Origin: a virus
Reading direction: 5' to 3' (one strand)
Length of the DNA stretch: 44,840 bases
Virus record (IMG/VR): IMGVR_UViG_3300030061_000540
Span: 1-44,840 of that record
Shown here: positions 11,003-44,076 of the stretch, piece after piece
Layout: the number at the start of each line of letters is the position of its first letter
How positions within the stretch are numbered: the first letter of the stretch is position 1
Translations under genes and position numbers: made by a program
The notes under the pieces: model-generated
Told to the model about the DNA's origin: nothing
The model's input: only the letters and a program-made list of their open reading frames with translations
Database searches by the model: none

Positions 11003-12877
11003 ATGTCTTTAGGCTTAGGTATAGACTTAGCGGTTATAGGCCCAGGAGGTTTTGCTGTGCCATTTGAGTTTGTTAACTCGCTGTACAGTGATGGTGACCG
11101 AAGCTTTGCACAGCTGTCATCTGCTGTAAACAAGCCAGCAGCTACAAGTGGGTTTGCATTAAGCTGTTGGGTTCATTTTGATGGTAGTATTTCTAATGAG
11201 TATATCTTTGGCCATGTGGGTGACGCTGACATGTTCTTCCGATTTGATTCGAGTACATCCGCTACATTTCAAACTGCGGCTGGCACTAACACTACATGGA
11301 CTATATCTGCCAACTCCACAGGGTGGAATCACGTAGCTATATCATTAAATGGTGGTGTCAACGAGCTGTGGATTAACGCGGTAAAATCCACGGGTACAAC
11401 AGAAGACTACGACGCACAAGCTATAAATATAAGTCTTATAGGTAGGAGTAATACATCTTATGGTTTGTTTGTTATGGATGAACTAATTATAGATGCAGAC
11501 GGGACACTAACTCAGGCTCAAGTAAACTCATTATATAAAGCAGGAAAAGGAGTGTTAAGCAATACCGTAATAACAACCCCTGATATCTTTTACAGGTTTG
11601 ACCAAACAAGTGGAATCACTGTTGTTGACTCAAGCGGTAACGGAAACAACGCAACAATAAACTTTCCAACAAACGGGGATTGGTCACCACATTTATTAGC
11701 GGCCCCAACAATCACAGGGGGTTCTGTAAATACTACATCACCAGCTCAAGTTGTTCTAACAGGCACAAACTTTTATTCTGTTACAGGTTTAAGCGCATCT
11801 GGTACTGCTGTTGTTGATAGCTACACTATAAATAGTGTCACGCAGATAACGGCAATAGTCGATGTGGAAACCGCAGGAGACTACAGCATAACGGTAAATA
11901 ACATTGTAGGCTCTGCTACTATAGCTAGTCAAACAATAGCGTTATACGATTTCGGTAACTTTATTCAACCATCAGTAGGTAATACAACCGAAAGTGGCAC
12001 AATAGCTACAGCTTGGAATAGCACAGATAGATTTTCTAATATAATTGTAGCTTACTGGGCTAAAAGACCCGTAGGTGCTTCCTCATCTAAAACTAATGCA
12101 ATAGCGTCAGGTAACACCAACAACAGCACATACATATATCACAGAAACACCTCCCCATTCATTAGATTTGCCACTGACGGAGATAATAATCACAGAAGAG
12201 TTGAGTGGAACTTAAACATAACAGACAACGATTGGCATCATTTCTATTACTTTTATAATAACAACTCATTAACTGAGGACATAACACAGCAACCGACAGG
12301 TGCTGCCGATGGCACTTACTCTTCAATTTCCCCATCGGTTTATCCTCCTGGAGGCACAGGATTACAAATGACGGCAATTGTTTCAGGAGGTTCTGGGAAT
12401 ATAACTAGACTTAGCGTAACCGCTGTAGGCTCTGGTTATAGGACGGGTGATGAAATTACTTTTACAGTAGATGGACAAACAGCAAAAGCAGTTTTATCAA
12501 AAATTCCAGACAGTGTTGACGGTGAACTTTATCTTGTTTATGACGGGGTGCTACAAACAAGGTCAAGTTCTGAATTTCAATTTGATGGCGTTGATAATTT
12601 TGGAACATTTTTCGCAAGAGGCAGTGGCGGTTTTGACTCTGAAATAGGTGTTGACGATATCTTTTTTCATGAAAGAGTTAGTACAGTTGTTGAAGCACAG
12701 GCAATATATAATAACGGAAGAGCTGGAAACGTAACAAACATACTTGGTAGCCAACCTCTTTATTGGTACAAGTTTAATGAATCAATTCCCGCAACAACCA
12801 TAGCGCAAAGCGGTTCTGTTGGTAGTGCAGACATGACCCTCACTAACTTTACAGGAAGTTATTTGCCTACGCATTAA
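11003..12877 (+). CDS. LamG/IPT multi-domain fibre protein, receptor-binding candidate
   Basis: The product is 624 residues. Residues about 28-170 fit a LamG/concanavalin-like jelly roll (SCWVHFDG, WNHVAISLNGGVNELWIN). Residues about 230-312 resemble an IPT/TIG immunoglobulin-like domain (VVLTGTNFYSVTGLS). A second LamG-like domain spans about 335-600 (DNDWHHFYYFYN, DGELYLVYDGVLQ), but it is interrupted at about 432-502 by the recurrent GSGYRTGDEITF module. LamG folds bind glycans, so this is a good candidate for host recognition at the virion surface. It sits before the packaging genes, not in the tail block. Spacing to its neighbours is tight. Confidence 0.75.
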   Translation: MSLGLGIDLAVIGPGGFAVPFEFVNSLYSDGDRSFAQLSSAVNKPAATSGFALSCWVHFDGSISNEYIFGHVGDADMFFRFDSSTSATFQTAAGTNTTWTISANSTGWNHVAISLNGGVNELWINAVKSTGTTEDYDAQAINISLIGRSNTSYGLFVMDELIIDADGTLTQAQVNSLYKAGKGVLSNTVITTPDIFYRFDQTSGITVVDSSGNGNNATINFPTNGDWSPHLLAAPTITGGSVNTTSPAQVVLTGTNFYSVTGLSASGTAVVDSYTINSVTQITAIVDVETAGDYSITVNNIVGSATIASQTIALYDFGNFIQPSVGNTTESGTIATAWNSTDRFSNIIVAYWAKRPVGASSSKTNAIASGNTNNSTYIYHRNTSPFIRFATDGDNNHRRVEWNLNITDNDWHHFYYFYNNNSLTEDITQQPTGAADGTYSSISPSVYPPGGTGLQMTAIVSGGSGNITRLSVTAVGSGYRTGDEITFTVDGQTAKAVLSKIPDSVDGELYLVYDGVLQTRSSSEFQFDGVDNFGTFFARGSGGFDSEIGVDDIFFHERVSTVVEAQAIYNNGRAGNVTNILGSQPLYWYKFNESIPATTIAQSGSVGSADMTLTNFTGSYLPTH

Positions 12878-12896
12878 TAGAATTAAATTAAATTAA

Positions 12897-13124
12897 ATGA
12901 AAATAGAAAAAGAAGAGCTTGACAAGATTGTTGAGCAGCAGGTAGAATTAAACAATCTACTTAAAAGAATAGGTTTTATAGAGACCGAAAAAGATAGTCT
13001 TTTAAAGATGTACATTGAAGTGTTGGGGGAGTCTAATGCCACCAAGAAAGAGCTTGAAGATAAGTATGGGGCTATTAACATAGACCTATCCGATGGCTCG
13101 TATACTAAGGTTGAAACTGAGTAG
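12897..13124 (+). CDS. Small coiled-coil phage protein
   Basis: This 75-residue protein is highly charged and mostly helical, with a coiled-coil pattern over about 3-60 (EELDKIVEQQVELNNLLKRI) and a conserved-looking C-terminus KYGAINIDLSDGSY. Such proteins are common beside phage head genes; the helical pair plus strand might act as an assembly factor. The start follows an exact AATTAAATTAA leader. No named family. Confidence 0.65.
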   Translation: MKIEKEELDKIVEQQVELNNLLKRIGFIETEKDSLLKMYIEVLGESNATKKELEDKYGAINIDLSDGSYTKVETE

Positions 13125-13356: not shown

Positions 13357-13953
13357 ATGAGGAGTGTGTACGACTTTATTGTTAAGCCTATATCTGGTAG
13401 GTATAACAATACCAAAGATATTGGTGGAGTTAAGTTTGTAACTAACACAAAGATTGAAAGCTACAAAAGCGTTAGTAATGAGGCAGAAGTAATAGCCACG
13501 CCACTATCCATTGTAACAGACATCAAAGTTGGTGACAAGGTTATTGTCCACCATAATGTATTTAGAAGGTTTTACGACATAAGGGGTAATGAAAAGGATA
13601 GCCGTAGCCACATAAAAGAAGATATGTACGCTTGTTCACCAGAGCAGATATACCTTTATAAGGACAATGAATCACACCTTGATTATTGTTTTGTACAGCC
13701 AGTTGTTAATGACGATGAGTGGTCATCTCAAAAAGAAAAACCACTTACAGGTATACTTAGGTATGGCAACAAGGTTCTTGAAAAGAACGATGTACACCCA
13801 GGAATGGTTGTAGGATTCACCCCAGAGTCAGAGTTTGAGTTTGTTGTGGATGGTGAGTTATTATATTGTATGAAATCTAAAAATATTGTTTTGACCTATG
13901 GAAACGAAGGAAGCGAAACTAAATATAATCCAAGCTGGACGAGCAGCGGTTGA
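13357..13953 (+). CDS. Tandem Cpn10-like (GroES-fold) protein candidate
   Basis: The product is 198 residues and appears to have two halves. Residues 1-103 show Cpn10-like landmarks: YDFIVKP, a loop with DIGGVKFV, EAEVIATP, IKVGDKVIVHHN and EDMYACSPEQIYLY. Residues about 109-182 repeat the order in shorter form: YCFVQPV, TGILRYGN, HPGMVVGFTPESEF and LLYCMKSKNIVLTY. If the fold assignment is right, it would be a second co-chaperonin-type protein, next to the packaging genes. It could partner the phage GroEL, the host GroEL or neither. The 3' end overlaps the next gene by 56 nt. The assignment is from pattern only. Confidence 0.5.
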   Translation: MRSVYDFIVKPISGRYNNTKDIGGVKFVTNTKIESYKSVSNEAEVIATPLSIVTDIKVGDKVIVHHNVFRRFYDIRGNEKDSRSHIKEDMYACSPEQIYLYKDNESHLDYCFVQPVVNDDEWSSQKEKPLTGILRYGNKVLEKNDVHPGMVVGFTPESEFEFVVDGELLYCMKSKNIVLTYGNEGSETKYNPSWTSSG

Positions 13954-18824: not shown

Positions 18825-19994
18825 ATGTCAGAAACAAAAGTAGACTTGTCAAAAGTCAAGCCTAAGAAGGCTAAACAAACAGTAACTAAGTTAGACCTTT
18901 CTAAAAAGAAAGAAGAACTAAAAGAAAAAGAAGATGCCGTTCAAGAGCAAAGCACAGATGAAGTACCTGTACTCAACAAACCCGAAACTAGCGGAGAAGT
19001 GGAGGAAGGAACACCCGAATCAAAACCTGAAAACACTCCCGCAGAAGTCACCAGTTCAGATGATGGGGGTAAGTCAGAAGAAGGAGAAGTAGTAATACAA
19101 GAGATTACTGAAAAAGAAGAAGAGAAAGAAGAAGTAGCACCCGTTGTTGAACAAACAGAAGACAAGGTTAAGATAAATCTACCAGAGGGTGTAGATAAGC
19201 TTGTGAAGTTTATTGACGAAACAGGTGGTGACCTACAGGACTATGTGCGATTAAACACAGACTACTCGAACGTAGATGAAAAAACACTACTAAGAGAGTA
19301 CTATAAGAAAACAAAACCGCATCTTAACGATGAGGAAATAGATTTTGTAATGGAAGAAAACTTTCATTACGATGAAGAACTTGATGATGAGCGAGACATC
19401 AAGAGAAAAAAACTTGCTCAAAAAGAAGAGGTTTCAAAAGCCCATTCATTTCTAAATGATTTGAAGGATAAATACTACGAGGAAATCAAGTCGAGGCCCA
19501 CGCAGTCCAACGAACAAAGAAAAGCAATGGACTTTTTTAATCGCTACAAGGAGAGTGAACAACAAGCTGAAGAATCTAGAGGTTTATTCAAATCTAAAAC
19601 TAAAGATTTTTTCCAAAACGATTTCAAAGGTTTTGATTTTAAAGTTGGGGAAAAGAAATTTAGATACGGGGTAAGTAATCCAGAATCAATTGCTGATACT
19701 CAGTCTAGCATTAATAATATATTGGGGAAGTTTCTCGATGAAGGTGGTAATGTAAAAAGATTTGACGAGTATCATAAAGCAATGTATGCGGCCCAAAATG
19801 TTGACAAAATTGCTTCACACTTTTACGAACAGGGTAAGGCTGACGCTATCAAGGATGTTTCTGTTAAGTCTAAAAACATAACAGGTGAGGCACCTAGACA
19901 AACGTCAAACGATAGTCTGTTTATAAATGGGTTAAAGGTTAAGGCTGTCAACGGCATCGACTCTTCAAAACTTAAAATTAATAAAAAAACCTAA
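18825..19994 (+). CDS. Capsid scaffolding protein candidate
   Basis: This 389-residue protein lies just before the major capsid gene. The first 115 residues are low-complexity and strongly acidic (Glu/Pro/Lys/Val), then a structured segment contains LVKFIDETGGDLQDYVRLN (about 126-144) and DERDIKRKKLAQKEEVSKA. The C-terminus is basic (SSKLKINKKT). A disordered acidic part, a helical middle and a basic capsid-binding tail are typical of internal scaffolds, which shape the prohead and then leave. No protease domain is visible in it. Confidence 0.7.
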   Translation: MSETKVDLSKVKPKKAKQTVTKLDLSKKKEELKEKEDAVQEQSTDEVPVLNKPETSGEVEEGTPESKPENTPAEVTSSDDGGKSEEGEVVIQEITEKEEEKEEVAPVVEQTEDKVKINLPEGVDKLVKFIDETGGDLQDYVRLNTDYSNVDEKTLLREYYKKTKPHLNDEEIDFVMEENFHYDEELDDERDIKRKKLAQKEEVSKAHSFLNDLKDKYYEEIKSRPTQSNEQRKAMDFFNRYKESEQQAEESRGLFKSKTKDFFQNDFKGFDFKVGEKKFRYGVSNPESIADTQSSINNILGKFLDEGGNVKRFDEYHKAMYAAQNVDKIASHFYEQGKADAIKDVSVKSKNITGEAPRQTSNDSLFINGLKVKAVNGIDSSKLKINKKT

Positions 19995-30239: not shown

Positions 30240-30920
30240 ATGGGGAGAAGAAAAAAGTTTAATCAAATATATATAGCTACTCAAAGGCAGAACGAGTATG
30301 CTATGCAGGCATCTTTAGCTGAAGCAGAGTTAAACAACATAAGGAATCAAAGGGCTGCTATCGTAGACCCGTCTTCTGCTGTAAAAGACCTAAGCGGTAC
30401 GTTTTCAAATCCATACGCAAACTTAGGTGTTGCAACAAAGGCGGCTGAAATGCAGGTTGAACAAACAGATGCTGCATTAGCGAACACACTAGACACACTT
30501 AGGGCTACAGGCTCAGGTGCTGGTGGTGCCACTGCACTTGCGCAGGCTGCACTACAAAGTAAGAACTCTGTTTCTGCTAGTATACAACAACAAGAGGCTC
30601 AAAACCAAAAACTTAAAGCTCAAGGGGAAGACCAGTTGCAAAAAATGGTTGCAAGCGAACAACAAAGAGTCCAGGCAGCTAAAGCCGCTGGTATGGAGTT
30701 TGTGTTCTCAGCAGAGGAGGCTAGAACAAATGCAGACCTAGACTATGCTGCAAACAAAGAGCAGTTGGCGGACGATAGAAGGTACCAAGCGGAGGGTGAT
30801 ATAGAAGCTGCTGCAAATCAGTTTAGAAAACCTTTTAGACAATTTGAGGCTCTTTTTGGCGGTGAAGACCCAAGAAAATACCAGCGGGGAGCTGCCTCAA
30901 TATATGATTATCAAGAATAA
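30240..30920 (+). CDS. Internal virion/ejection-type protein
   Basis: This 226-residue protein is helical and rich in Ala, Gln and Glu, with a coiled-coil pattern over about 12-45 and 110-185, a central LRATGSGAGGATALAQAAL segment (about 88-106) of small residues, and an RKPFRQFEALFG end. Composition and position after the tail nozzle fit the small ejection proteins of podoviruses, comparable to T7 gp14, which leave the capsid to make a conduit across the cell envelope. The A-rich leader AATAAAAAGTA precedes the start. Confidence 0.6.
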   Translation: MGRRKKFNQIYIATQRQNEYAMQASLAEAELNNIRNQRAAIVDPSSAVKDLSGTFSNPYANLGVATKAAEMQVEQTDAALANTLDTLRATGSGAGGATALAQAALQSKNSVSASIQQQEAQNQKLKAQGEDQLQKMVASEQQRVQAAKAAGMEFVFSAEEARTNADLDYAANKEQLADDRRYQAEGDIEAAANQFRKPFRQFEALFGGEDPRKYQRGAASIYDYQE

Positions 30921-30929
30921 AAGAATAAA

Positions 30930-33065
30930 ATGGGATACAGAAGTCAATCAGGAGAAAGTCAATTTAGGGGTTCAACACAGCCACAACAAGACAATGTAGG
31001 GCAGCAAATCGTTGGCTCTGTAGTAGATGTTGTTGGAACAGAACTCATAAATATTGGTAAGGCAAACAGGTTAAGAAAAGAAGTTAACAGTCAGCTTGCA
31101 CAAGAGTCGATGAATAATCAAGAGCGACTAATGAATGAAATTGGTGGGTTTGGAAAGGTTGACGGAGATAGTCCAGAAATTGGGCCTGACTCTAAAAATC
31201 TTCAAGACATATTCACTGGGGTTGTTAGTGAATTATCAAAGGCTCAGTTAAACTTATCTCAGCACGGTAACGCAACGTATACTTACAAGTACATCGACCC
31301 AAATACTGGAGAAGAGTCCATGAGAACTAGGGAGGACGATGAGGCCATCATTAATTCCAATAAAAATCTAATAAGAGGTGCGCAAGACTTTATTGGCGCA
31401 CATGAATATAATATAGGTGTTGTGGAGACAGCTATAGAAGAAGGTAAGATTGGTAATGATAGAGGGCAAACTCCATTAAACAAAATTGACCCGTATGTTT
31501 ATGCTGCGGCACTAGCGGGAAACGCATTAAATGGACAGGCCGTGAAAGAAAGGTATTTCTTTGAAAAAGACGAGAACGGAAACAGGGTCATGATGATTGA
31601 ACTTAAAGGGCAATCAATAGCCCAAGTAAACAAAGCAAGAGGTGTAGAGGGTGACACACATGTTATGAACCTAAAAAGACTTTCTGAAATACAGTCATCT
31701 GTGTCTTCTTTACCTAATAACTCCGCAGGGTCTAACACAGCGCATGACTACACAGAACAATTTAATCAAAGCTTACAAAAAGCTGGGGCTTGGAAAGAAG
31801 GTCAATTCACAGAAAACTTTTATATTGATGACCCAGACGAAATAACTGACATATCTGGTAGAACTAAAATTACATCTAAAGTTAAGGCTTTTGACTACAA
31901 CGCAGCCGAACAGCAAACTGACGCTATAGCTAAAGCATTGTCACAGCAGTCTGCAAAGGGTGGTCCAGACCAGTTACTTATTGATTTAGCTGCATATAGC
32001 GTTAAAACGGAAGACCCTGAAACTGGTGAGGTAGTTTTTTCTCTTGTACCAGGACCAGAGTTTAATGAAGACAAAGAATCAAAAAAATATGGATTGATTT
32101 TGTATAACGAAGACAGAAGCCCAAAAATGAAAGAACCAAAAAGGCTTCTTGATGACGATGGTTTGTTTATTCAAGAAAACTTTCCTGGTCAAAAAATTGA
32201 AGATGTACTTAAAGATGTTATTCAGCAATCTATAATGTTGGACGGTGGGGCTTATAACTCGCAAGAAAAGATAAAAGTTGCTAGTTCAATTATACCTGAT
32301 TCAGATGATAGTGGTGGAGACAGGAAGTTAGCTAAGTGGGAAGTGGTTTCTAAACAAAATTTATCTTTGATTGAAAATGCTTCTGAAGAGCTGTCTGGCT
32401 TAACTATCGAACAAATGAAAGATGACCCTACAATGGTTGAGGGTGTATTGGAAAGCTTACTGGGAATATCAAGAAATAAAGCAAATGCTGTAAGGGTTTC
32501 AAATATAAAAGGAGTACCTACAGCTGTGTTTGTGCATCAAGATTCTGATGGGATAGATATAGAAGAGTTCATACCCTTGGATGATATGAAAAAGTTTCAG
32601 CAAAGAATGCAAAACATATCGGAAGTATATGAGTTGGATGATTCTGGTATACCTAAATTAGTACAGGGCGTTGCTACCGCTAAACCTACTGATGCTGTTA
32701 AGTTAAAAGAAACTAAGGCTTCTAGAGCTTTAAAAAGTAAAAATATTCTCAAGCAGGGAAGTAAAGACACCGTTGCTGAGTCATTTGTTGACAACATTTT
32801 AAAGATTAACGTGAGTGACGATGAAACTATAGGAAGTTTAGCTAACGCTAAAGGGTTAAATATAGAGTTTAGTGATGAAAATTGGACAGGGTTTTTTGGT
32901 ACTAGAGAGCTAATAATAGGTGATGTGAAACTTGATTTAGGACCTCTTGATAAAAAACCCACAACAGCTGCGGAAATAAAGGAAAATAAAGAGGACATTA
33001 AGGTGATTCAAAATAGAATTTTAGAGATATTAGAAGAACAAGATTTATACAAAAAGACGAAATAA
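30930..33065 (+). CDS. Large internal/cargo-type virion protein
   Basis: The product is 711 residues. It begins with a Gln/Ser-rich flexible part (1-25) followed by GQQIVGSVVDVVGTELINIG. The middle has mixed alpha/beta segments (ATYTYKYIDPNTGEES, DPYVYAAALAGNALNG) and several acidic stretches. No signal or transmembrane segment is visible and no catalytic motif is clear. Location between the small ejection-type protein and the giant polyvalent protein suggests a capsid-internal protein ejected with DNA. Function inferred from context only. Confidence 0.55.
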   Translation: MGYRSQSGESQFRGSTQPQQDNVGQQIVGSVVDVVGTELINIGKANRLRKEVNSQLAQESMNNQERLMNEIGGFGKVDGDSPEIGPDSKNLQDIFTGVVSELSKAQLNLSQHGNATYTYKYIDPNTGEESMRTREDDEAIINSNKNLIRGAQDFIGAHEYNIGVVETAIEEGKIGNDRGQTPLNKIDPYVYAAALAGNALNGQAVKERYFFEKDENGNRVMMIELKGQSIAQVNKARGVEGDTHVMNLKRLSEIQSSVSSLPNNSAGSNTAHDYTEQFNQSLQKAGAWKEGQFTENFYIDDPDEITDISGRTKITSKVKAFDYNAAEQQTDAIAKALSQQSAKGGPDQLLIDLAAYSVKTEDPETGEVVFSLVPGPEFNEDKESKKYGLILYNEDRSPKMKEPKRLLDDDGLFIQENFPGQKIEDVLKDVIQQSIMLDGGAYNSQEKIKVASSIIPDSDDSGGDRKLAKWEVVSKQNLSLIENASEELSGLTIEQMKDDPTMVEGVLESLLGISRNKANAVRVSNIKGVPTAVFVHQDSDGIDIEEFIPLDDMKKFQQRMQNISEVYELDDSGIPKLVQGVATAKPTDAVKLKETKASRALKSKNILKQGSKDTVAESFVDNILKINVSDDETIGSLANAKGLNIEFSDENWTGFFGTRELIIGDVKLDLGPLDKKPTTAAEIKENKEDIKVIQNRILEILEEQDLYKKTK

Positions 33066-33079
33066 AAAATATCAGATTA

Positions 33080-36000
33080 ATGGCTGAAAAAAAATATAAA
33101 ACACCCGCTGGTAATATATACACAGAGTCTGAGTTAAGAAAAAAATATCCAGACCAGTTTGATTCTTTGGTTTCTAATAATAAACTCACATTAGTTAGTG
33201 ATGAGGGTGATGTGACTGAAGAAGAAGAAGAGGTTGTTGAAGAACCTGCTGTGGAAGAGCCTGTTGTAGAGGAACCTGCTGCAGAAGAGCCTGTTGTGGA
33301 AAAGGTTGAAGCCCCAATTACAGACTACGGTTCGTATCTTGGCTATACGCCACCAGCTATTACTACTGACCAACTAGGTGATGCTACAAAAACCTCTGGC
33401 GATGTGTTTTTACAAGAGCTTGAAAAGCGTAAAAAAACGATATTTAAAGAAGAGGCTGAGTTATCTGAAAGGTTAGGTGAGATTGAAAAACAAAAGAGAG
33501 CTGAGTTGTTGGAAGAAGAAGAGGCTCAACAAAAAAAATCAACGGAAATAAGGGAGTCAGAAAAGTTTAAATCTGTGCTAGATGGTATAGATAAAAGTTT
33601 AATAAAGCAAGAGGAAGAGATAGTTGTCCCACAACTTAAAGAAGACTTTATTGACTACGGTTTTGTTTTTGAAGAGACGGGTATTGGTGACGCACTAACT
33701 GTTACAACAAATGACGGTAAAAGCAGCATCGTCATAGACCTAGACCCGTTTACCGAAAGCGGTGCTGAAAAAGAAACAAAGAGGTTAAAGGATTTTTTAT
33801 CATCAAACGTATCTTTTGAGAGAAAAGAAGAAAAGGTTATAGAAGGAACTAGTAAAGCAGAATCTTTTTATAAAAACCGTAACCTAAACTATCAGGCAGA
33901 AAAAAACTCCTACGATGAATATGTAAAAGTAAGGGATGAAATAGACAGAATAGAAGAAATAAAAAACTTAGGCTTTGATTTAGGGACGCAGGCTGATGAA
34001 TCCGCTTACTACACTGACCTATCTGACTTAAAAGAAAAAGAGTCTGCTTTGTTTGATGTAGTAATGAGGGACGAAGCAAAAGAAACTAGAGAGGGTTACG
34101 ACCAATACATTGGTGGGTTAATAAAACTCAGTATGGATAAGGCTAACGATGTATATATAAGTGCGGAAAACAAACAAGCTGACTTAGATGTGTACTCTAA
34201 AGAAACATTTGGGGTTGGATTAGACGGTCTGCAAACATACAAAGCTAAAAGCCAAGAAGAGGTTGATGTTATCAACGATATATTTAACGACTACAATAAA
34301 TCAAACGCTGAAAAAAGACTAGCTCAAGACAAATACGACTTGTCTATATCGTACTTTGATACACAAGTAGACAAACAGATTGAGCAGGAGTATTCAGAAA
34401 ATTTAAGTGGTTTTTTAAACGAATTTGATAAAGGGTTGCAGCAGGGTCTGGCGGCTGAGGTTATACTCATGTCTGCACTAGGTATTGGTTATGACATGGA
34501 TGACCAAGACTCAAGGATGGAGGCTGCTAAAAAAATATATACTCATCTATCTAAAAACCCTGGTGCTTCATCTAAAGTGTTGTCTCAGTACAACAAAGCA
34601 GTAGGGGCTAAAGAGACCGCAGATATACTTTTTAACGACCCGTTTGAGCTAATGACTACCTTGGCAGCAAGCTCATTATCCATGATGCTACCATACGGTT
34701 ATAAAATAGTCGGTTCAACAACATTGTTAGGTGCTGGAATTGGTACTGGTGCGGGTGCGGCTTTTGCTGGTGTGGGTGCCTTACCTGGTTTTATTACGGG
34801 TACCGCTAAAGGTTTTCAAACAGGTATGTCTGCTACTAGTTTGGCAATGGAATACACTAATGAGGTGTTAGACGCAGCTAGAGAAAAGTACGATATAATG
34901 AACGACCCAACTGGTGAGGAAATGGCAAAAGCATTGGCTGACCCAGAGGTTTGGGCAACGGGTAAAGAAAGGGGTTTAAAAAGAGGTATACCTATTGCGG
35001 TTATGGACCTTATATCAGGACAACTTGCGGGTAAAATATTTACAGCTGGAAAATTTTCAGGGGTTGGTGCTAGGGTTGGTGCGCAAATAGTAGAAAGAGC
35101 TGTGTTTGACCCCTTGGCTGAAGCCGCTGGTGAAGCTTTGGCACAGACGGTTGTTGGTGATGACTTGGAGTATAAAGAAATACTTTCAGAATCCCTTGGA
35201 AGCGTGGGTAATAACACCACAAACATGGCGGTTAATTTAGGTCTTGAGGCTGCTCTTAATAAAAACAAGGCTCTTGGGAAAAACTTAATGATGGCAGATT
35301 TTGTGGCAAAAGAGTCTGCCTCTGACGAAACTATTGCTAACTGGGCAAACAGGAGAGAGAAAGCTGGTAAGATGTCTAAGGAGGACAATCAAAAAATACA
35401 AAAAAATGTAGCCACAAGAAGAGAGGCTCGTCAGCTTTTGGATGTTGGAGAAAAGAAGTCAAGAAAAAATTCTAAGGTGTTGTCTAGGACAATGATACTA
35501 CTAAACACAAAAGAAATACTTTCTTCTGACCCAGTAAGGAAGTCAACTTTCTCTAAGCTAATAAAAGAAATAAGTAACGAACTTGAGGTTATTGCCACCA
35601 CTAAAAAACTATCTGACAAGCCAGTTGATGTGTCTGCGTTTGTAAAGGAAGCTGTAATAGAGCAAGTCACCACTAAGAGTAAGCCGAAGTACGAAAAGCC
35701 GACAATGTTCACAACCACTACACCTGAAAAGTATGGGACAGTAAACAGACAAGACGGTAAGGGTGAGGTAGTCCTTACAGAAGAGGAGTACAACGCTGAG
35801 ATGGAGAAGTTTGCCCCTGTTGAAGAGGTTACGCCTACCGAAGAGGCTGTGGTTGAAGAGGCTGCTCCTGTTGATGTGGTTGAAGGGGCGGTCCCTGAAG
35901 TTGGAGAAGTAGTTTATCATGGTTCTCCAACTGATATTGAGGGTGGAGTTTTAAAGAAGGGTGTATCGGGGGCAATTTTTTTAACGCCATCTCGCAAATA

Positions 36001-39000
36001 TGCAGAAAGTTATGCCCCTCAAGGGACAGGCTCTGTTACGGAGTTTACAATTTCTGAAGAAAAAAAGAATAATCTTTTTGACATAAGAAACGAGGAACAT
36101 ATTGAAAGATTAAAAGAAGGATTCATCAACAACAATGAAGACTTAGAAATAGAGTATGATTCTGAAGAAGACGCGTTAAGAGATTACGATAACGCTATTC
36201 GGAGTATGAAAGAAGCGTCTGAGGGTAGAGAAGGGGTAAATGATTGGGCAAGCGGCAGTCAGTTTATAGAGGCTATGGAGAATGCTGGTTTTGAAGGAGC
36301 TTTATTTGCCGAAAGACCAGCAGGTTTAATTAGCGAAGATGTAGTATTAAGCTATGCTTTATTTGATAATGAATTAGAAATTAAAAAAGCACAAGATGCC
36401 GTTCAAAAGTCAAGCACAGAAACTACAGCAGAAGCTATACCTGAACCGATTAAAAAAGCTACCAAAGAAGATAGGGACGCTTTTGATGCAGGCACAATGG
36501 ATGAAGAAAGAACTGGTGGAATTATATCTGACATAGCTGACAGAATTATATCTGGTAGAAAACTAACCCCATTTCTAAAAAGGTTTCAAGAGAAAAACAA
36601 AGAAAAGGTGGAGGAGATGATTTCTTTTAAATCAGAAGTGTCTGATTTAGAGGCATCTATAAACGAAACATTTGAGCAGGTTAATAATGCTGTTGACGGC
36701 AAGCCTCGTATGCGAAAGGGTGAAGATGAAGTAGCTGCTGAGGACTATGTAGATTTAGTGTCGGTAATTAAGGAGATGAACGAACTTGACCCTAGACTTG
36801 TCAACTACACAACACCAAAACTTTCTGAAGACATCGAAGTGAGTCCTATATCTGAAGCCACAGACACAAGCCCTATCCCGCAAGAGATTCTTGATTTCTA
36901 CGGAGTGAAGGACGCTACTGAGTTTGAAAAATCTATTGAAGAGTTTGAGGGTATTCCTATGGTGAGAGGAGGCATGACTGATATGCTAGGTGGTGGGAAG
37001 GTAAAAGACTCTATGGGTAATGACATGGAGATAGGTGGAGGTATTATGTTCAGTTTAAGAAACATTGCCAACAAAGGACTAGCTTGGGCTGGTATTGATA
37101 AAACAGGGGCAAACACACAATACAAGGACGCTGTAAAATTATACAACGACAACAAGGCTCTTTTTGAAAGGCTTTGGAAGGAAGAGAGACTACCAAACGG
37201 TCATATCCCAATGACCATTACAAAGATGGCAGATTCTGGAGTTAATTCCAACGAGGCTGTGTTCAGGTATGTCCTTCCAAAGTTAAAGTCTGTTCCATTA
37301 GAAAACAGAAAGAAGTCCTTTGATGCCTTGATGGATAGAATGTTTAGTAAAAGAACAAAAAAAGACGGTACAGTACTTCCCCCTCTAATTTCAGAAAAAG
37401 AAGTTAAAGAAGGAGAAGAGAAAAAGATTCCGAGGGCTAAAAAAGTACGGTCACTTATTGAAACTTACAAGGTAACTACTATGGATGGTTTTTTTGAGGC
37501 TATAGTTAAGGACGCTAACCTACGAGCTAAAGACGAGACAAAAGCAATCCTAACCCTTGATGATAGGTCAGCAATATTTAATATTATTTTTTCTAAAGGA
37601 GCTAAAACTACAAAAACTGGTAAGCCAGCGATAGGCAATAATTTACCACACTCAAAAGCTTTGTTTGAGGGTATAGAAAAAGACCCTTATTTACTCAATG
37701 CTGAAAACGTGTATGATGCAATAGCTGAAAAAAGTGTAAAGGACACGCCTAAAGGATATGTGGTTGCGGTTGTGGGTATAGACGTGTTAAACGGTGGGGT
37801 TACTAAAGCGTCTCACACAAACTATGGGTTTGGGCCTAAAGGGCGTTTAATAGGTTTAATAACAAACCCAAGACACCAGGCAGATATATTTCCTGAGCAG
37901 ACAGCAAGAGCTGCTGGTCAAGCTAAGTTAAAGAAAAGTGAAAAGACAGGTGAAGTAACTATGACATCTGACAAGACAATTCTTGGTCAAGCCCTTGGTA
38001 ATTTCTTTAATATGAATGTAGCTCAAGGCCAAAAGGCTAGAGTAAAACCTGACACCACCCAGCAACTTATTGGGTTAATGCGATTAACATTCCCGTCAGT
38101 GCAAGCATATACAAGTCAAGCTGAGTTTGATAACATACTACAGGAAGAGGGTGTAAGAGAACACCTTGTAGATGGTGTACCTGTTCTTGGTTTAACTAAA
38201 GACGGTAAGATATACATAAATCCATCTCAACCCTCCATTAACACACCTATTCATGAGTTTGGCCATATTTGGACTGACATGCTTAGGTCTAGCAAAAAAG
38301 GCCGTGAGCTTTTAGCAAAAGGTTTGTCGATGGTAGACTCTGACCCTAAAGCATACGAAGCAGCTAAGAGAAAGTATGCTGAGTACGATGCGGACGGCAA
38401 CATTACTAATGAAGAGTTAGTGAGGGAAGAGGCGTTGGTTTCTATGATTGCCGCTAAAGGAGAAGGTATTGTAGACGCAGCTCAAAAGTCAAACTTTAAG
38501 AATTGGCTTAAAGGTGTGATGGAGTATGTTAAGAAAAACTTTAAGGGAACTTTTGAAGCTATCGGAACAGGAAAAAATAAAAAAGTAAAGTCCATTATTA
38601 ATGATAAGATGGTTGAAGAACTATCTCTTGATGGTTTTTTAAACATGGCTATAGCTGACCTTCTTTCGGGAGAAGTATCCGCTGTTCAACCAGAGAAGTC
38701 CCCAACTCCACAAGAGTCAAGAGCTAAGATGTCTAAAAAACAAACTGAATCTTTAGAGTCCTCTAGTGTCAGGTTTTCCAAGGGTTCAGATGTGTCGATG
38801 TCATCCATCATAAACGAAGGGCGAAGACTAGGGTTCAGTGAAAAAGCAATCAAAGAAATATTAAGAAGAAGAAAGTTTAAAGTAAGTGATATAAATAAAG
38901 CTTTAGAGGTATCTATTGACTTACTAACTCCATTGCCACCTGAGTTTGGAGATATAGAGGGTGGTGTTGAAGCTGGAGAAAAACTCTACAGGTCTGTTCG

Positions 39001-42000
39001 TAAAAAACTAGGGAGCTTTGTAAAAAGAGGTATAAAGGACTCTGAGGGTAAAAGAAGGGATGTTTCGTTTTCAGAAACACAAAGAAAAGCAATAGAGCTT
39101 TTAAAGCAAGACGCTGTGTTTAAAAATCAACCAGAGGTAACTCAAAAAGCCTTAATCGTGGCTATGGATGCGTCTTTAAATGTTGATAACAGCAACCCTG
39201 TTTCGTCTGAAATTGGAGCAATAAAGGCATCACTGTCTAAACTAGATACAAAAAAACAAGGGAAGAGAGAGGTAAAAGAACTGCAAACTAGGTTGAAAAA
39301 CTTTATAAGAAAAAGTCTAATAAAGTCTGATAATTACAGTCAAGCGGATATCAATAAACTGATAAGAACGGTGGTTGACATCGACTCAATAACTTTCAAC
39401 GAAAAAGCTATAGCTGACTTTCAGATTTCAGCTCAAAAGGCACTAGAGGTCGTAGAAAAGCAGAGAGATAGAAAGAAGAATAAAACTATATCTAAAATAA
39501 TATCTAGAGTAAAGAAGGGAGCGCAAAAGAAAAGGGGTTCTGGTAGTGCTGCTGGTAAAGTAAAGGCAGGCGTAACTGAACAAGAAGGTCAAGTGTTTTT
39601 TGCTCAGGCACAAAAGATATTAGAGGCGGTTAAAAACGGTACTGTGGATGAAGTTAGAAAGAGCCTTAACGAGCCAGAGATATTAGAAATAATAGAAAAC
39701 GCTATAGTAAAAGAAAACAACGGGGAAAGCCTAACTCAAAAAGAGAAAACACTATTAAATAGGGCGTATGCTCTAGACACCTTTGGGAATATAATGAACA
39801 TGGAGATTGAGGCTCTTGAGGCAATGCTTGAAAGTGTGAACGATGTTAGAAAATTTAGTGCTTTACAGTTAAGGTCAAGAAGACAGGCACGAACATTAGA
39901 AAACGCAGAACTAAACTCTGAAGGAACTCGTCAAATTGAAAAAGGGTTTCCATCGTTATTTAAAACAATTGGTTTAGAAAATAAAAAAGGCACAACTAAA
40001 AAAGTATTAAAGGACGATAACGAACGTAACTCAGACAAAAAGGCTATTGCTAATGAATTTAAGAAAGGTAAGGTTTTTAGCTCGATAGCTAAAGTCACAA
40101 AAAGAATTATGGAGTTTAGAACAAACCCTATAGATTTTGCATTAAGAGGTAACATCTATCACTTAGGTACATTAACAAATATACTTGATAGAGGTGGTAA
40201 TTTTTTAACTAAAAATATTTATGATGCTCTTAACAACGCTAACGAAGTAAAGCTTCAAGGTTTTGACAACCAAATGGACTTTTTAAATTCTATAGCGGAA
40301 ACTTTTGATGGCATTAAAGGAACCCCACTAAACCCAGCGTATCGTCAATTTAAAAACAAATTAAATAAAAAAGAATTAAACATAGGTAAAATCAGAGATA
40401 AGGAAGGTTTTTTAGAGGAAAACGAAACAATGCTAACAACGCAACAAGCGATGAGGTTATATGCTTTGTCTAAAAACCCTGTTCAAAGAGCGAAGCTTGA
40501 AGCTATGGGTATAGGAAAAGAAACTATGGGCCAAATTATAGCGCACATAGGTAAAGACGCTGTTACTTTGGTTGACGCTACAGTGGACTACCTTAGTAAT
40601 GATTATTTTGAGTCGATTAATTCCGTTTACTCTCAGACTAACGATGTTAATTTGAATTATGTAGAGAACTATTTTCCAACAAGGTCTGTCATGGATGGGA
40701 CTACAGAGGTTTCGGAGCAAGGTTTAGATTTTTCAAAGCAATTCACAGCAGAAAATGAATCCGCACTTAATAAGAGAGTTGACATGTCATCACCGATTCT
40801 TGTTTCTCAATCTTTTGACGTTGCATTGGATGCATACTTTGACTCAATGGAAAACTATAAGGCTCACGCTGTAACAGTAAAAAAGATAAACGCAATATTT
40901 AAAAATAAAGCTGTTGCAGCTTTGCTTAAAGAAACGGGATTAAAAGACTTAATGCGAAGCCAAATAAACTACGCTATTAATGGTACCACTCCTTATCAAG
41001 TAGCAGCTAAAGCTGGTGTGCTTTGGACCAGTTTTGTAGGTGTAGCCCTAGGTCTTAAAGCTATACAAATACTCAAACAAGCCACATCGTTTGTGCAAGC
41101 GTTTGAAGATTATAGTTTTAGAGGGCAGGGAAAGAAAAAGATACCTGGTCTAGACCTAATGATGTTTATGTTAGATGGTGCGTATACATACGCTACGTTT
41201 CCACTTCAAATTAAAAAGGCATGGGGTGTGTCTGCAACATTTCGAGATAGACTTAGAAGGGGATTAGACGGTGACGTTTATGGGTTAGAAAGTGGAAGAA
41301 ACCAATACAAATTAGTTAGTCAAAACAACAATAAACTAAAAGCTATAAAAAGAGGATGGAGAGCATTGACAGTTGCCCCAACCGTTTTTGGTGATGTTTT
41401 AGGTGTTTTAGGGTATATGATTAATTATAACAGAAACATAAAAAACGGAATGTCAAAGGCTGAGGCGGTTGAAAAACTAAATAACTACAACGCAACACAG
41501 CAGACTAGAAGAAACACTGAGGTATCTCAGATTAGTCAAAACAAAAACGTATTAATTAGGGTTTTTACCACGTTTGGTAGCACATTATTTCTTCAAATCA
41601 ATAATGTTTCTCAGGCCTTTACTAACATAATGAGAGGCATGAAGAAAGGTGAAAAGGTAAAAGCTAAGGATATTAGAAAACTAGCTTTAAACATGTCTAT
41701 AGCTAACGGTCTATTTGTTGGTGCGTCTAACATAGCTAAAATAATAAAGGGTGACGAGGATGACCGTGAGGAGGTAATGCATGAAATGATTAAGGCTCTT
41801 ACTGGACTAAACCTTTTGTTTGGTGTGCCACTTATTGGGGTTGCTGCTGAAGGGGCATATGATGCAGCAAGGGGTCAGAAAGTATATGCAGGTGGTGGGA
41901 TAAACCCGTATTCAGATTTTGTAAATAAATTCAGAAAAGCATTAAACAGCGAAGAAGTTACATTAGAGGCATCAAAAGTCATAACAAGTATTATGATTAA

Positions 42001-42238
42001 AGCAAACGTAGACCCTATAGTAGCTGTATATAATGGGTTTGTAACCGATGAAGGTTTTGATGCTAAAACAGTAATGGAACTTATCGGAATATCTCCATCC
42101 TACAGACCAGCTGAATCAAGCGGCAGTGCCGCACCACTTGAACGAACACTTGATGATATGGTGCAAGATGGTGATTTTGATGATATAGATACAAATGTGG
42201 ATATTGACACTGATTTTGAAACAAATGTGGATTTTTAA
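33080..42238 (+). CDS. Giant polyvalent protein with ART-like and HEFGH peptidase domains
   Basis: The product is 3052 residues, a fifth of the window. In order: an acidic Val/Pro/Glu repeat linker (about 48-73); charged coiled coils (about 110-520); a Gly/Ala-rich hydrophobic stretch (about 526-582) that could cross or lean on a membrane; a second Val/Glu/Pro linker before VYHGSP (945-950), starting an ADP-ribosyltransferase-like domain to about 1104 (IFLTPSRKYAESYA); a domain with FGPKGRLIGLITNPRHQ; an HEFGH zinc peptidase motif (1725-1729) with E1783/E1784 as third-ligand candidates; then long helical regions and a hydrophobic C-terminal part of polyvalent type (GVLWTSFVGVALGLKAIQI). Such proteins are thought to be ejected with the DNA and act early in the host. 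No RNA-polymerase DxDGD motif was seen. Confidence 0.75.
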   Translation: MAEKKYKTPAGNIYTESELRKKYPDQFDSLVSNNKLTLVSDEGDVTEEEEEVVEEPAVEEPVVEEPAAEEPVVEKVEAPITDYGSYLGYTPPAITTDQLGDATKTSGDVFLQELEKRKKTIFKEEAELSERLGEIEKQKRAELLEEEEAQQKKSTEIRESEKFKSVLDGIDKSLIKQEEEIVVPQLKEDFIDYGFVFEETGIGDALTVTTNDGKSSIVIDLDPFTESGAEKETKRLKDFLSSNVSFERKEEKVIEGTSKAESFYKNRNLNYQAEKNSYDEYVKVRDEIDRIEEIKNLGFDLGTQADESAYYTDLSDLKEKESALFDVVMRDEAKETREGYDQYIGGLIKLSMDKANDVYISAENKQADLDVYSKETFGVGLDGLQTYKAKSQEEVDVINDIFNDYNKSNAEKRLAQDKYDLSISYFDTQVDKQIEQEYSENLSGFLNEFDKGLQQGLAAEVILMSALGIGYDMDDQDSRMEAAKKIYTHLSKNPGASSKVLSQYNKAVGAKETADILFNDPFELMTTLAASSLSMMLPYGYKIVGSTTLLGAGIGTGAGAAFAGVGALPGFITGTAKGFQTGMSATSLAMEYTNEVLDAAREKYDIMNDPTGEEMAKALADPEVWATGKERGLKRGIPIAVMDLISGQLAGKIFTAGKFSGVGARVGAQIVERAVFDPLAEAAGEALAQTVVGDDLEYKEILSESLGSVGNNTTNMAVNLGLEAALNKNKALGKNLMMADFVAKESASDETIANWANRREKAGKMSKEDNQKIQKNVATRREARQLLDVGEKKSRKNSKVLSRTMILLNTKEILSSDPVRKSTFSKLIKEISNELEVIATTKKLSDKPVDVSAFVKEAVIEQVTTKSKPKYEKPTMFTTTTPEKYGTVNRQDGKGEVVLTEEEYNAEMEKFAPVEEVTPTEEAVVEEAAPVDVVEGAVPEVGEVVYHGSPTDIEGGVLKKGVSGAIFLTPSRKYAESYAPQGTGSVTEFTISEEKKNNLFDIRNEEHIERLKEGFINNNEDLEIEYDSEEDALRDYDNAIRSMKEASEGREGVNDWASGSQFIEAMENAGFEGALFAERPAGLISEDVVLSYALFDNELEIKKAQDAVQKSSTETTAEAIPEPIKKATKEDRDAFDAGTMDEERTGGIISDIADRIISGRKLTPFLKRFQEKNKEKVEEMISFKSEVSDLEASINETFEQVNNAVDGKPRMRKGEDEVAAEDYVDLVSVIKEMNELDPRLVNYTTPKLSEDIEVSPISEATDTSPIPQEILDFYGVKDATEFEKSIEEFEGIPMVRGGMTDMLGGGKVKDSMGNDMEIGGGIMFSLRNIANKGLAWAGIDKTGANTQYKDAVKLYNDNKALFERLWKEERLPNGHIPMTITKMADSGVNSNEAVFRYVLPKLKSVPLENRKKSFDALMDRMFSKRTKKDGTVLPPLISEKEVKEGEEKKIPRAKKVRSLIETYKVTTMDGFFEAIVKDANLRAKDETKAILTLDDRSAIFNIIFSKGAKTTKTGKPAIGNNLPHSKALFEGIEKDPYLLNAENVYDAIAEKSVKDTPKGYVVAVVGIDVLNGGVTKASHTNYGFGPKGRLIGLITNPRHQADIFPEQTARAAGQAKLKKSEKTGEVTMTSDKTILGQALGNFFNMNVAQGQKARVKPDTTQQLIGLMRLTFPSVQAYTSQAEFDNILQEEGVREHLVDGVPVLGLTKDGKIYINPSQPSINTPIHEFGHIWTDMLRSSKKGRELLAKGLSMVDSDPKAYEAAKRKYAEYDADGNITNEELVREEALVSMIAAKGEGIVDAAQKSNFKNWLKGVMEYVKKNFKGTFEAIGTGKNKKVKSIINDKMVEELSLDGFLNMAIADLLSGEVSAVQPEKSPTPQESRAKMSKKQTESLESSSVRFSKGSDVSMSSIINEGRRLGFSEKAIKEILRRRKFKVSDINKALEVSIDLLTPLPPEFGDIEGGVEAGEKLYRSVRKKLGSFVKRGIKDSEGKRRDVSFSETQRKAIELLKQDAVFKNQPEVTQKALIVAMDASLNVDNSNPVSSEIGAIKASLSKLDTKKQGKREVKELQTRLKNFIRKSLIKSDNYSQADINKLIRTVVDIDSITFNEKAIADFQISAQKALEVVEKQRDRKKNKTISKIISRVKKGAQKKRGSGSAAGKVKAGVTEQEGQVFFAQAQKILEAVKNGTVDEVRKSLNEPEILEIIENAIVKENNGESLTQKEKTLLNRAYALDTFGNIMNMEIEALEAMLESVNDVRKFSALQLRSRRQARTLENAELNSEGTRQIEKGFPSLFKTIGLENKKGTTKKVLKDDNERNSDKKAIANEFKKGKVFSSIAKVTKRIMEFRTNPIDFALRGNIYHLGTLTNILDRGGNFLTKNIYDALNNANEVKLQGFDNQMDFLNSIAETFDGIKGTPLNPAYRQFKNKLNKKELNIGKIRDKEGFLEENETMLTTQQAMRLYALSKNPVQRAKLEAMGIGKETMGQIIAHIGKDAVTLVDATVDYLSNDYFESINSVYSQTNDVNLNYVENYFPTRSVMDGTTEVSEQGLDFSKQFTAENESALNKRVDMSSPILVSQSFDVALDAYFDSMENYKAHAVTVKKINAIFKNKAVAALLKETGLKDLMRSQINYAINGTTPYQVAAKAGVLWTSFVGVALGLKAIQILKQATSFVQAFEDYSFRGQGKKKIPGLDLMMFMLDGAYTYATFPLQIKKAWGVSATFRDRLRRGLDGDVYGLESGRNQYKLVSQNNNKLKAIKRGWRALTVAPTVFGDVLGVLGYMINYNRNIKNGMSKAEAVEKLNNYNATQQTRRNTEVSQISQNKNVLIRVFTTFGSTLFLQINNVSQAFTNIMRGMKKGEKVKAKDIRKLALNMSIANGLFVGASNIAKIIKGDEDDREEVMHEMIKALTGLNLLFGVPLIGVAAEGAYDAARGQKVYAGGGINPYSDFVNKFRKALNSEEVTLEASKVITSIMIKANVDPIVAVYNGFVTDEGFDAKTVMELIGISPSYRPAESSGSAAPLERTLDDMVQDGDFDDIDTNVDIDTDFETNVDF
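33226..33306 (+). repeat. In-frame acidic repeat encoding EEPAVEEPVV units
   Basis: A 30-nt-like unit recurs about two and a half times, encoding alternating EEPA and EEPVV steps near the N-terminus of the giant protein. A related Val/Glu/Pro linker recurs before the ART-like domain (about 35815-35895). They look like flexible spacers between functional parts. Confidence 0.75.
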
Positions 42239-42354: not shown

Positions 42355-44076
42355 TTATCCATCGCAGCTTATACAGTTTTCATCTGTAGCACTAGCTGCA
42401 ATATCACCCCTAAGTACAGACTCAGTCCTCACATAGTACAAGGTCTTTATACCCTTCTTCCATGCGTCAAGGTGTACCCTGTTAATAAACTTAGGGTCAA
42501 CCGTTGATGGGAACGCTAGGTTAAGACTAACACCCTGGTCTATGTACTGCTGACGTATACCAGCTTGGTTCACAACCTCTAGTTGATTAATCTCCTTGAA
42601 CGTCTTGAATACCTCCTTGGCTGAAATCTTATGCTTACCAAGTAAGACATCGTCCAACTCCTTCACCCCCTGAACAGAACCACCGTCCTCAAGAATCTTA
42701 CCCCACACCTTATCGTTGTTTAAGTCGTTGTGCTTCAGCACCTTCTCTAGACTAGGATTCTTTCTAATAAACGTACCCTTAAGTGACTGCTCTGTAAAGA
42801 CATTGGCCGCCCAAGGCTCGATGCCAGGACTAACATTACCACTAAGTTTCGAGTTAGATACAGTGGGAGCAACAGCACGAAGGTGGGTGTTCCGCATTCC
42901 TGTACCAACGCACCAAAGCGGCTCACCGAAAGCTTCTGCAAGAGCCATAGAAGCTCTCTCTGTTTCAATCTTGATTTGGCTAAATATTCTACGAGTCTCG
43001 TACTGCGATAGTAAACCCTCGAAAGGTAGTCCCTTCTCCTGAAGGTAAGTATGCCATCCGAGTACTCCCAGTCCCAAGGCACGTCCCTTCTCAGCAGAAC
43101 GGACGGAGTTTTCAAAGCCAATCTTTCCTTTCGCCTTCTGTATAAACTCCTCAAGTACCCCATCAAGGAACCATGTCGCATCATATATAAGGTTAGTGTC
43201 TTTCCATTCATCATACTTAGCTAGGTTTAAACTTGATAGGCAGCACACAAAGCTGTGACTCTCATCGGTGTGTAAAGTAATCTCAGAGCAAATGTTTGTC
43301 ATGTGTACCTTCAAACCAAGCCTCTTGTACTGCTCTGGGTTCTGCTTGTTTACATTACCCTTGAACATTATGTACGGCTCACCTGTGGCCTTACGCTTCT
43401 GTAACAGCTTACCCCATTTGGTTCTAGCCTCAGTGTCACCGTCAAGGAGTTTACGCATAAACTTATCCCCAACAACAGCACACTGATGAAGGTTAAGTGA
43501 CTGCCGATTAACGTCACCCCTTGGCTCCCTTATCTCTAACCAGTCCTCAAAGTCTTCGTGTTCGATGTTTAGGTTAACACTTGCTGCACCCCTTCTAACA
43601 GCCCCTTGGTTGGTGGCTAATATACTAGAGTCGTATATCTTACAGAATGGTACAACACCATCAGATGTCCCGTTACCTTTTATGGACGCACCAGCGGGTC
43701 GTATCTGGTTTATACCAACACCGACACCACCACCGTGTTTGGCGAGTAGCATCATCTCTAAATTCTTACTACCAATGTCAGCTATAGAGTCAGCAACATC
43801 GATACCAAAACAACTGATTGGTAAGCCCCTGTTTGTACCTGTGTTAGAAAGTACAGGGGACGCTAAACAAAGCCAACCTTTCCATATGTACTCAAAGAAT
43901 CTTTCAGCCATCTCAGGACGCTCTAAATGTGCGGCAACAGTGTTAGCCACCCTCCAGTAAGCATCCTTTGGTGTCTCATCGTTAATGAGGTATCCACCAG
44001 CTATTGTTTTCTTATATACGTCTGACTCAGCCCAATTCGGGTAGTCCCTACCCTTCACCCACCTGTGACTTGACAT
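42355..44076 (-). CDS. nrdA: Class I ribonucleoside-diphosphate reductase, large subunit
   Basis: The protein is 573 residues; E. coli NrdA is 761. It reduces ribonucleotides to deoxyribonucleotides for phage DNA synthesis, with a small radical-generating subunit not present in this window. Visible residues: redox Cys C89 (RGLPISCFG), the active-site N261-x-C263-x-E265 (TNICSEITL), the partner Cys in FVCCLSSLN (278 or 279), the radical-transfer pair Y547-Y548 (TLYYVRTES), and the C-terminal C568-x-x-C571 that accepts electrons from thioredoxin or glutaredoxin. The N-terminal ATP-cone that sets overall activity is missing. It overlaps the upstream gene by 29 nt and ends before a terminator. 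Confidence 0.95.
   Translation of the reverse strand: MSSHRWVKGRDYPNWAESDVYKKTIAGGYLINDETPKDAYWRVANTVAAHLERPEMAERFFEYIWKGWLCLASPVLSNTGTNRGLPISCFGIDVADSIADIGSKNLEMMLLAKHGGGVGVGINQIRPAGASIKGNGTSDGVVPFCKIYDSSILATNQGAVRRGAASVNLNIEHEDFEDWLEIREPRGDVNRQSLNLHQCAVVGDKFMRKLLDGDTEARTKWGKLLQKRKATGEPYIMFKGNVNKQNPEQYKRLGLKVHMTNICSEITLHTDESHSFVCCLSSLNLAKYDEWKDTNLIYDATWFLDGVLEEFIQKAKGKIGFENSVRSAEKGRALGLGVLGWHTYLQEKGLPFEGLLSQYETRRIFSQIKIETERASMALAEAFGEPLWCVGTGMRNTHLRAVAPTVSNSKLSGNVSPGIEPWAANVFTEQSLKGTFIRKNPSLEKVLKHNDLNNDKVWGKILEDGGSVQGVKELDDVLLGKHKISAKEVFKTFKEINQLEVVNQAGIRQQYIDQGVSLNLAFPSTVDPKFINRVHLDAWKKGIKTLYYVRTESVLRGDIAASATDENCISCDG

Follow-up and report, generated by a model that had tools for sequence, protein, structure and literature searches.

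A giant, cysteine-free phage protein of the polyvalent type with an exchangeable cargo slot and an overlapping small gene

Introduction

Phage polyvalent proteins are very long, multidomain proteins that have been proposed to be packaged in the virion and injected into the host (Iyer et al. 2017, PMC5512222). Giant proteins are also described in N4 and RPP1 (gp50 and the vRNAP of Schitoviridae, PMC12633501), in the T7 ejectosome, and in the isolated flavophages elemoA, Gundel_1 and phi38:1. Here, we analyse a 44,840-base viral fragment (IMG/VR record IMGVR_UViG_3300030061_000540; hereafter the window, meaning this whole stretch of DNA) that encodes a protein of 3052 aa. The protein is a variant of the phage polyvalent and ejection proteins (PMC5512222; N4 vRNAP, PMC12633501) rather than a new category. 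A cassette swap, a cysteine signature and an overlapping small gene set it apart from an ordinary new member of this group. The swap and the overlapping gene were both absent from an initial annotation made from the sequence.

The giant protein shares with polyvalent proteins its length, its virion-gene neighbours, its proposed packaging and injection, and a predicted combination of a zincin-type peptidase with ART-like and other enzyme-like regions, and a further link runs through the relative L007, which has an LPD23 domain above the Pfam cut-off. Unlike them, it brings no Pfam polyvalent domain over its cut-off in the window, and its peptidase is not recognised as MPTase-PolyVal; searches of the window for MPTase-PolyVal (PF18818) and LPD38 (PF18857) gave no match. 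Direct cassette exchange in a near-identical giant protein and an overlapping small gene at the slot are further differences. Like N4 gp50 and the RPP1 vRNAP (about 3000–3800 aa), the window protein places a candidate HExxH peptidase ahead of a large helical C-terminus. Like N4 gp50, it is the third of a small-mid-giant set, putatively for ejection in the window phage (N4 gp52 with 150 aa, gp51 with 644 aa, then gp50) and free of cysteine, as N4 gp50 is over the counted first 2675 residues; the RPP1 vRNAP carries a fused ART. In contrast to these proteins, the giant has no detected RNA polymerase, a different core and no detected sequence similarity. The T7 ejectosome shows the same order and size series (gp14 196 aa, gp15 747 aa, gp16 1318 aa), is also cysteine-poor and also carries an enzyme domain in its largest member, whereas the window protein lacks the transglycosylase of gp16, is more than twice its size and has exchangeable cargo. 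Searches with Pfam and PHROG profiles found no RNA polymerase or transglycosylase domain in the giant protein. The flavophage giants elemoA gp90, Gundel_1 gp074 and phi38:1 gp101 occupy the same operon position, and the elemo giant matches the window core by predicted structure. Cargo differs among them: a GNAT domain in Gundel_1, an ART-like sequence in elemo, and none seen in phi38:1.

Layout of the giant protein

The window encodes TerL, portal and structural proteins, GroEL, GroES and the large subunit of ribonucleotide reductase (RNR), and the virus is most likely a podovirus-like phage of Bacteroidota-type bacteria. The phage-encoded GroEL (513 aa) and GroES-like protein (198 aa) lie at 3333–4874 and 13357–13953, and the RNR gene (42355–44076, − strand) is convergent with the giant gene. 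All window features described below are on the + strand.

The giant ORF, a candidate third ejection protein of the polyvalent type (33080..42238), runs from ATG to TAA with zero internal stops and encodes 3052 aa with no cysteine. The single intact chain proposed in the initial annotation is therefore borne out, as are the motif positions it gave (VYHGSP from residue 945, HEFGH from residue 1725), its linkers, its Gly-rich hydrophobic segment and its hydrophobic C-terminal region. The linkers are acidic and rich in E, P and V. Near the N-terminus, a Gly/Ala-rich hydrophobic segment (34667..35269, residues 530–730; 14% G, 15% A) belongs to a module common to 10 compared proteins (profile from residues 401–880). 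A variable cargo slot (35827..36419, residues ~917–1114) holds an ART-like cassette (35906..36367, residues ~943–1096) with H947, Y974/Y978, and S1091 at the expected acidic position. A conserved core module follows (36752..38179, residues ~1225–1700), with SNEA.FR and H.NY motifs and a fold that has no known match, and then a gluzincin-type peptidase region (38177..38749, residues ~1700–1890), with HEFGH at 38252–38266 and E1784 as candidate third ligand. The C-terminal helical region (38750..42235, residues 1891–3052) has hydrophobic stretches at residues 2641–2665, 2762–2781 and 2903–2925 and represents one of several exchangeable C-terminal types. The chain joins an ART-like region, below the Pfam cut-off, and a gluzincin-type region with modules of no known family. 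Pfam matches to DUF6861, Glyco_hydro_59, YopD, Gag and the like are sub-cut-off, fall on Gly-rich or helical stretches, and were rejected.

A putative ejection triad without cysteine

The giant gene is part of a block of late virion genes, with TerL, portal and structural genes upstream. The order is portal, a 389-aa protein, the MCP position, and then proteins of 292, 338, 401, 1231, 577, 226, 711 and 3052 aa. The last three genes are consecutive, cysteine-free and downstream of the capsid genes, with the giant at the end. The 226-aa protein (30240..30920) is a relative of Gundel_1 gp072 (E 6e-4), which in turn matches phi38:1 gp099 (E 4e-15). The 711-aa protein (30930..33065) is the putative second member by position and size only; it has no family match, and no relatives were detected among the triad genes compared. 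Small-mid-giant series also stand at the end of the structural block in phi38:1 (200/549/1691 aa), elemoA (202/450/3694 aa) and ctfjg026 (302/644 aa and a giant), and Gundel_1 has one of 225, 511 and 2482 aa. The syntenic giants of the isolated flavophages phi38:1, elemoA and Gundel_1 are labelled structural protein in their annotations.

Cysteine is nearly excluded from this family. The 27 giant homologues hold 5 cysteines in 73,074 residues, with none in the window protein. None occurs in T7 gp15 and gp16, in N4 gp51 and gp52 or in the first 2675 residues of N4 gp50, and T7 gp14 has one. The comparison proteins contain more: 10 in 738 residues of TerL, 10 in 573 of RNR, 3 in the 1231-aa structural protein, 3 in phi38:1 gp097 and 4 in N4 gp53. 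In our reading, cysteine may be avoided by proteins that unfold and cross the periplasm, and its exclusion from the giant family supports ejection without recourse to homology.

The initial annotation had placed the giant after ejection-type proteins, which agrees with its position as third gene of the putative set, and had suggested capsid carriage and injection. Position, triad, the structural annotation of relatives and near-zero cysteine all favour that suggestion, and it is from these that we infer packaging and ejection; carriage of the giant in the virion appears likely, if unproven. A long, helical protein encoded inside the structural gene block, whose relatives are annotated as structural and nothing more, might also be an internal protein of a tape-measure-like or scaffold type that stays out of the cell and whose domains are incidental. 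We regard this as improbable, given the 226/711/3052 triad with its podovirus-type synteny, a cysteine exclusion common to known ejected proteins, and the enzyme-type domains at the slot (ART-like in the window protein, GNAT in Gundel_1).

Cassette exchange at the cargo slot

Comparison of the ejection candidate with its nearest relative, L002 (88% identical overall), delimits the slot sharply. At the DNA level the two are 98.3% identical over 2754 bp ending at 35826, show no similarity over 35827–36419, where L002 has unrelated sequence, and are 94% identical from 36420 onwards. The ART regions of L012, L013 and L035 are 71–77% identical to that of the window, and their other regions only 22–49%. 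The slots of a second pair, L022/L025 (77% identical), also differ: one holds an ART-like sequence (FYTGRG...ISYVVLD, recognised by eye and without a Pfam match), the other a short linker. Gundel_1 has at the slot position a GNAT domain (PF00583, 21.3 bits against a cut-off of 20.7). Together, the block swap in L002, the recurrence of the ART in divergent backbones, the L022/L025 difference and the Gundel_1 GNAT indicate that the slot is a true exchange site and that the ART is one cargo among several. N- and C-terminal modules are likewise exchanged between similar proteins (L006/L007, L019/L032 and L021/L025). The contigs compared at the slot are all metagenomic, and an assembly chimera could in principle mimic such a swap. 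This is highly improbable, however: the L002 version is present in two assemblies, with 100% identity between the L002 and L003 proteins, three additional phages carry the ART cassette, L022 and L025 provide an independent pair, and the reading frame is nowhere broken.

The window cassette matches Pfam ART-PolyVal (PF18760) with E 3.6e-5 (25 bits), or 3.8e-7 (26.2 bits) in a one-genome search, below the curated cut-off of 31.2 bits. At the sensitivity used, phage, plasmid and genome collections yielded no ART homologues beyond the giant family. H947, the strand 1 histidine, and Y974/Y978, the strand 2 tyrosines, are invariant among the four cassette members, and the ERPAG loop is strictly conserved. 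At the acidic third catalytic column all four have serine (S1091), within an invariant S-Y-A-L-F-D. Three further ART-PolyVal domains from Bacteroidota, all scoring above the cut-off, have Asp (Paludibacter), Thr and Thr (L067, L068) in this column. Structure prediction, which the initial annotation had proposed as a check, gave models for both the ART region and the core, and neither significantly matches the PDB. For the ART region (pLDDT 77), the top PDB matches are Tpt1/KptA of the ART superfamily, which make up 12 of the best 50 matches, with a best E of 0.9. The ART-like domain of the initial annotation is favoured by the histidine and tyrosine motifs and weakened by a Pfam score under the cut-off, by serine in place of the acid and by non-significant fold matches; we accept a predicted ART fold with moderate confidence.

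Whether that fold uses NAD is a separate matter. Serine at position 1091 in four of four members and a Pfam score under the cut-off would also fit a catalytically atypical or inactive cassette, serving as a binding or structural module, and we give this a substantial probability, clearly short of even. Some mono-ARTs function without the glutamate. Threonine in L067 and L068 argues that a domain can belong to the family without the acid, and the strong conservation of H947, the tyrosine motif and the ERPAG loop also speaks against this reading.

A conserved core with a candidate peptidase

The HEFGH motif lies outside the slot, within a conserved core of about 650 residues; 21 sequences were aligned across residues 1195–1900. 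HE[FM]GH together with E1784 is kept in 20 of these, and HEFGH or HEMGH at this frequency argues that the motif is not a chance occurrence. The exception, L024, has GQFGH and Asp at 1784, a joint change that would follow from a role of E1784 as third zinc ligand. L024 (2128 aa) retains the core despite this dead peptidase motif. The HEFGH region is also shared with the Gundel_1 giant (E 3e-10). The core AlphaFold model (pLDDT 79, pTM 0.78) has a confident helical part around HEFGH, and no PDB entry matches the core/peptidase model with E<=0.001. Against BFVD, the core model gives 19 giant phage protein matches with E<=0.001, among them an elemoC structural protein and PcfJ-like and acetyltransferase-bearing proteins. 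The BFVD matches also include unnamed phage proteins of 419–472 aa in total, which suggests that the core module may also occur as a stand-alone protein. The top PDB match of the core is the N4 mini-vRNAP, and an RNA polymerase was rejected at E 0.22, probability 0.04 and an rmsd of 28 Å. The peptidase named in the initial annotation therefore stands on its motif, E1784 and conservation, with the PDB comparison contributing no matching fold; motif and conservation support a gluzincin-type peptidase.

What this peptidase would cut is best judged from its place. The initial annotation had considered proteolysis of host targets at entry, and other conflict systems do use zincin domains in an effector role (PMC5512222), while the relatives L007 and L008 carry a second HExxH. 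Yet the peptidase region is part of the conserved core, outside the exchanged slot, and the core persists in a relative that lacks the catalytic HE, which differs from what a fast-evolving toxin aimed at the host would show. We therefore consider it unlikely, perhaps one chance in several, that the peptidase is itself an effector that cuts host proteins once injected, and judge self-processing or a role in the core likelier. The phi38:1 giant, gp101, was without peptidase or cargo in our comparison, which suggests that neither part is essential for the role of the protein.

Peptidase motifs vary further among the relatives. L007 has an additional HExxH region with HEVQH (12002–13099), next to its LPD23 domain (36.1 bits, cut-off 27), L008 has an extra HEFGH, making two in all, and the L013 contig carries a separate 340-aa ORF (G007:C1:41446-41784, − strand) that matches MPTase-PolyVal at 105.8 bits.

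An overlapping small gene at the slot

About 15 giant proteins share a linker motif, DA[VI]QKQ..., at their slot, with codons as well as residues conserved among very distant phages. The conserved DNA begins at an ATG that lies mid-codon, and in its +1 frame it encodes a basic protein of about 44 aa (range 41–58 aa), with a stop in most copies; the L021 copy, for example, reads MPFKSKQQVKFLYSQKPELAEKWRKEHPKQQLSKLPKKVSKQSKKK. In the window, an intact gene of 52 aa (MPFKSKAQMKYLYSTNPKLAEKWRKEHPNQNLKTLPQK..., 18934..19092) lies in the +1 frame of a 389-aa ORF at the scaffold position between portal and MCP (18825..19994), and a degenerate copy of 46 codons (MPFKSQAQ...LKKLPKKIG..., 36396..36536, +1 frame) marks the slot's 3′ boundary. 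The nearest relative likewise has two copies, of which the one in the scaffold-position gene is intact and the one in the giant gene degenerate. In elemoA gp90 (L010), a truncated and an intact copy (protein coordinates 1090 and 1222) flank an ART-like segment, YRGTSISEWES....

Two other causes of the conserved DNA were discarded. A peptide signal in the DAVQKQ linker, such as an encapsidation or cleavage site, is contradicted by the conserved codons, by the mid-codon ATG at which conservation begins, by indels that keep the +1 frame, and by changes that concentrate at +1-frame third positions. A structured RNA was considered as well, and Rfam gave no structured-RNA match in the window.

A scan of viral contigs for ATGCCRTTCAARARCAA returned at least 120 matches; tblastn for the small protein was run with a query lacking the K-rich tail, which had given nothing, probably through low-complexity masking. 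The host ORF reads through in the same alternative frame in 76 of the 80 loci read. For the 50 loci with a host ORF of about 400 aa, a portal homologue lies upstream in 50/50 and an MCP homologue downstream in 48/50, which is the place of the window ORF 18825–19994. Across 21 independent pairs, changes at +1-frame codon positions 1/2/3 number 97/62/196, and amino-acid changes 126 in the small protein versus 244 in the host protein. This skew and the smaller number of amino-acid changes make the small frame the constrained one and indicate that the small gene is under purifying selection. In the same frame of the giant genes, 3.4% of ATGs remain open for 35 codons. Free-standing copies also occur 1–2 bases behind the giant's stop in L006 (15472), L007 (16729) and L013 (14170), which shows it to be an independent gene, and stand-alone versions match phrog_1375. 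Further copies are in L004, L008, L010, L017, L019–L022, L025, L029, L030, L032, L033 and loci L072–L151. The pattern was matched in 19 of 26 records, one match, the G311 hit, being an HNH-like protein that begins similarly by chance and lies outside the small-protein family. The annotations of elemoA and ctfjg026 do not include the MPFKSK small gene, and a literature search for MPFKSK found no published description of the small protein.

We tentatively propose, at close to even odds but not quite reaching them, a single basic-protein gene, overlooked on account of its overlap with larger genes in a different frame, that is intact once per phage, at the scaffold gene, at the giant's slot or behind the giant, and whose DNA acts as a seam for cassette exchange.

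Proposed mechanism and implications

A model that we consider quite probable as a whole combines a head-stored, ejected giant with a modular chain, swappable cargo, a self-cutting peptidase and recombination at seams. The sequence itself shows the domain order, the synteny, the exchange, the conserved peptidase motif, the cysteine exclusion and the codon-position bias; the remaining steps are inferred. The three cysteine-free proteins would be carried inside the head and leave it together with the DNA, and the giant would work like T7 gp16 or N4 gp50 in crossing the envelope, with its N-terminal Gly-rich hydrophobic segment probably serving membrane passage. Inside the cell, the peptidase would most probably trim the giant chain or free the cargo from its flexible acidic linkers, and the freed ART-fold cargo could then modify a host component early, in the cytoplasm, as an ADP-ribosylating enzyme would. 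Cargo exchange would proceed by homologous recombination at DNA-conserved seams, one of them the nested-gene copy.

If the model holds, phages would have a route by which to swap enzymes injected at entry, with a fixed delivery and processing chain and an exchangeable slot that resembles the variable tips of polymorphic toxins in bacteria, except that it sits within a virion protein. Near-zero cysteine would offer a simple, homology-free test for further ejected phage proteins. The small gene has more than 80 copies and is absent from the annotations examined, and a conserved small protein of the virion-assembly locus may therefore be missed in many flavophage genomes.
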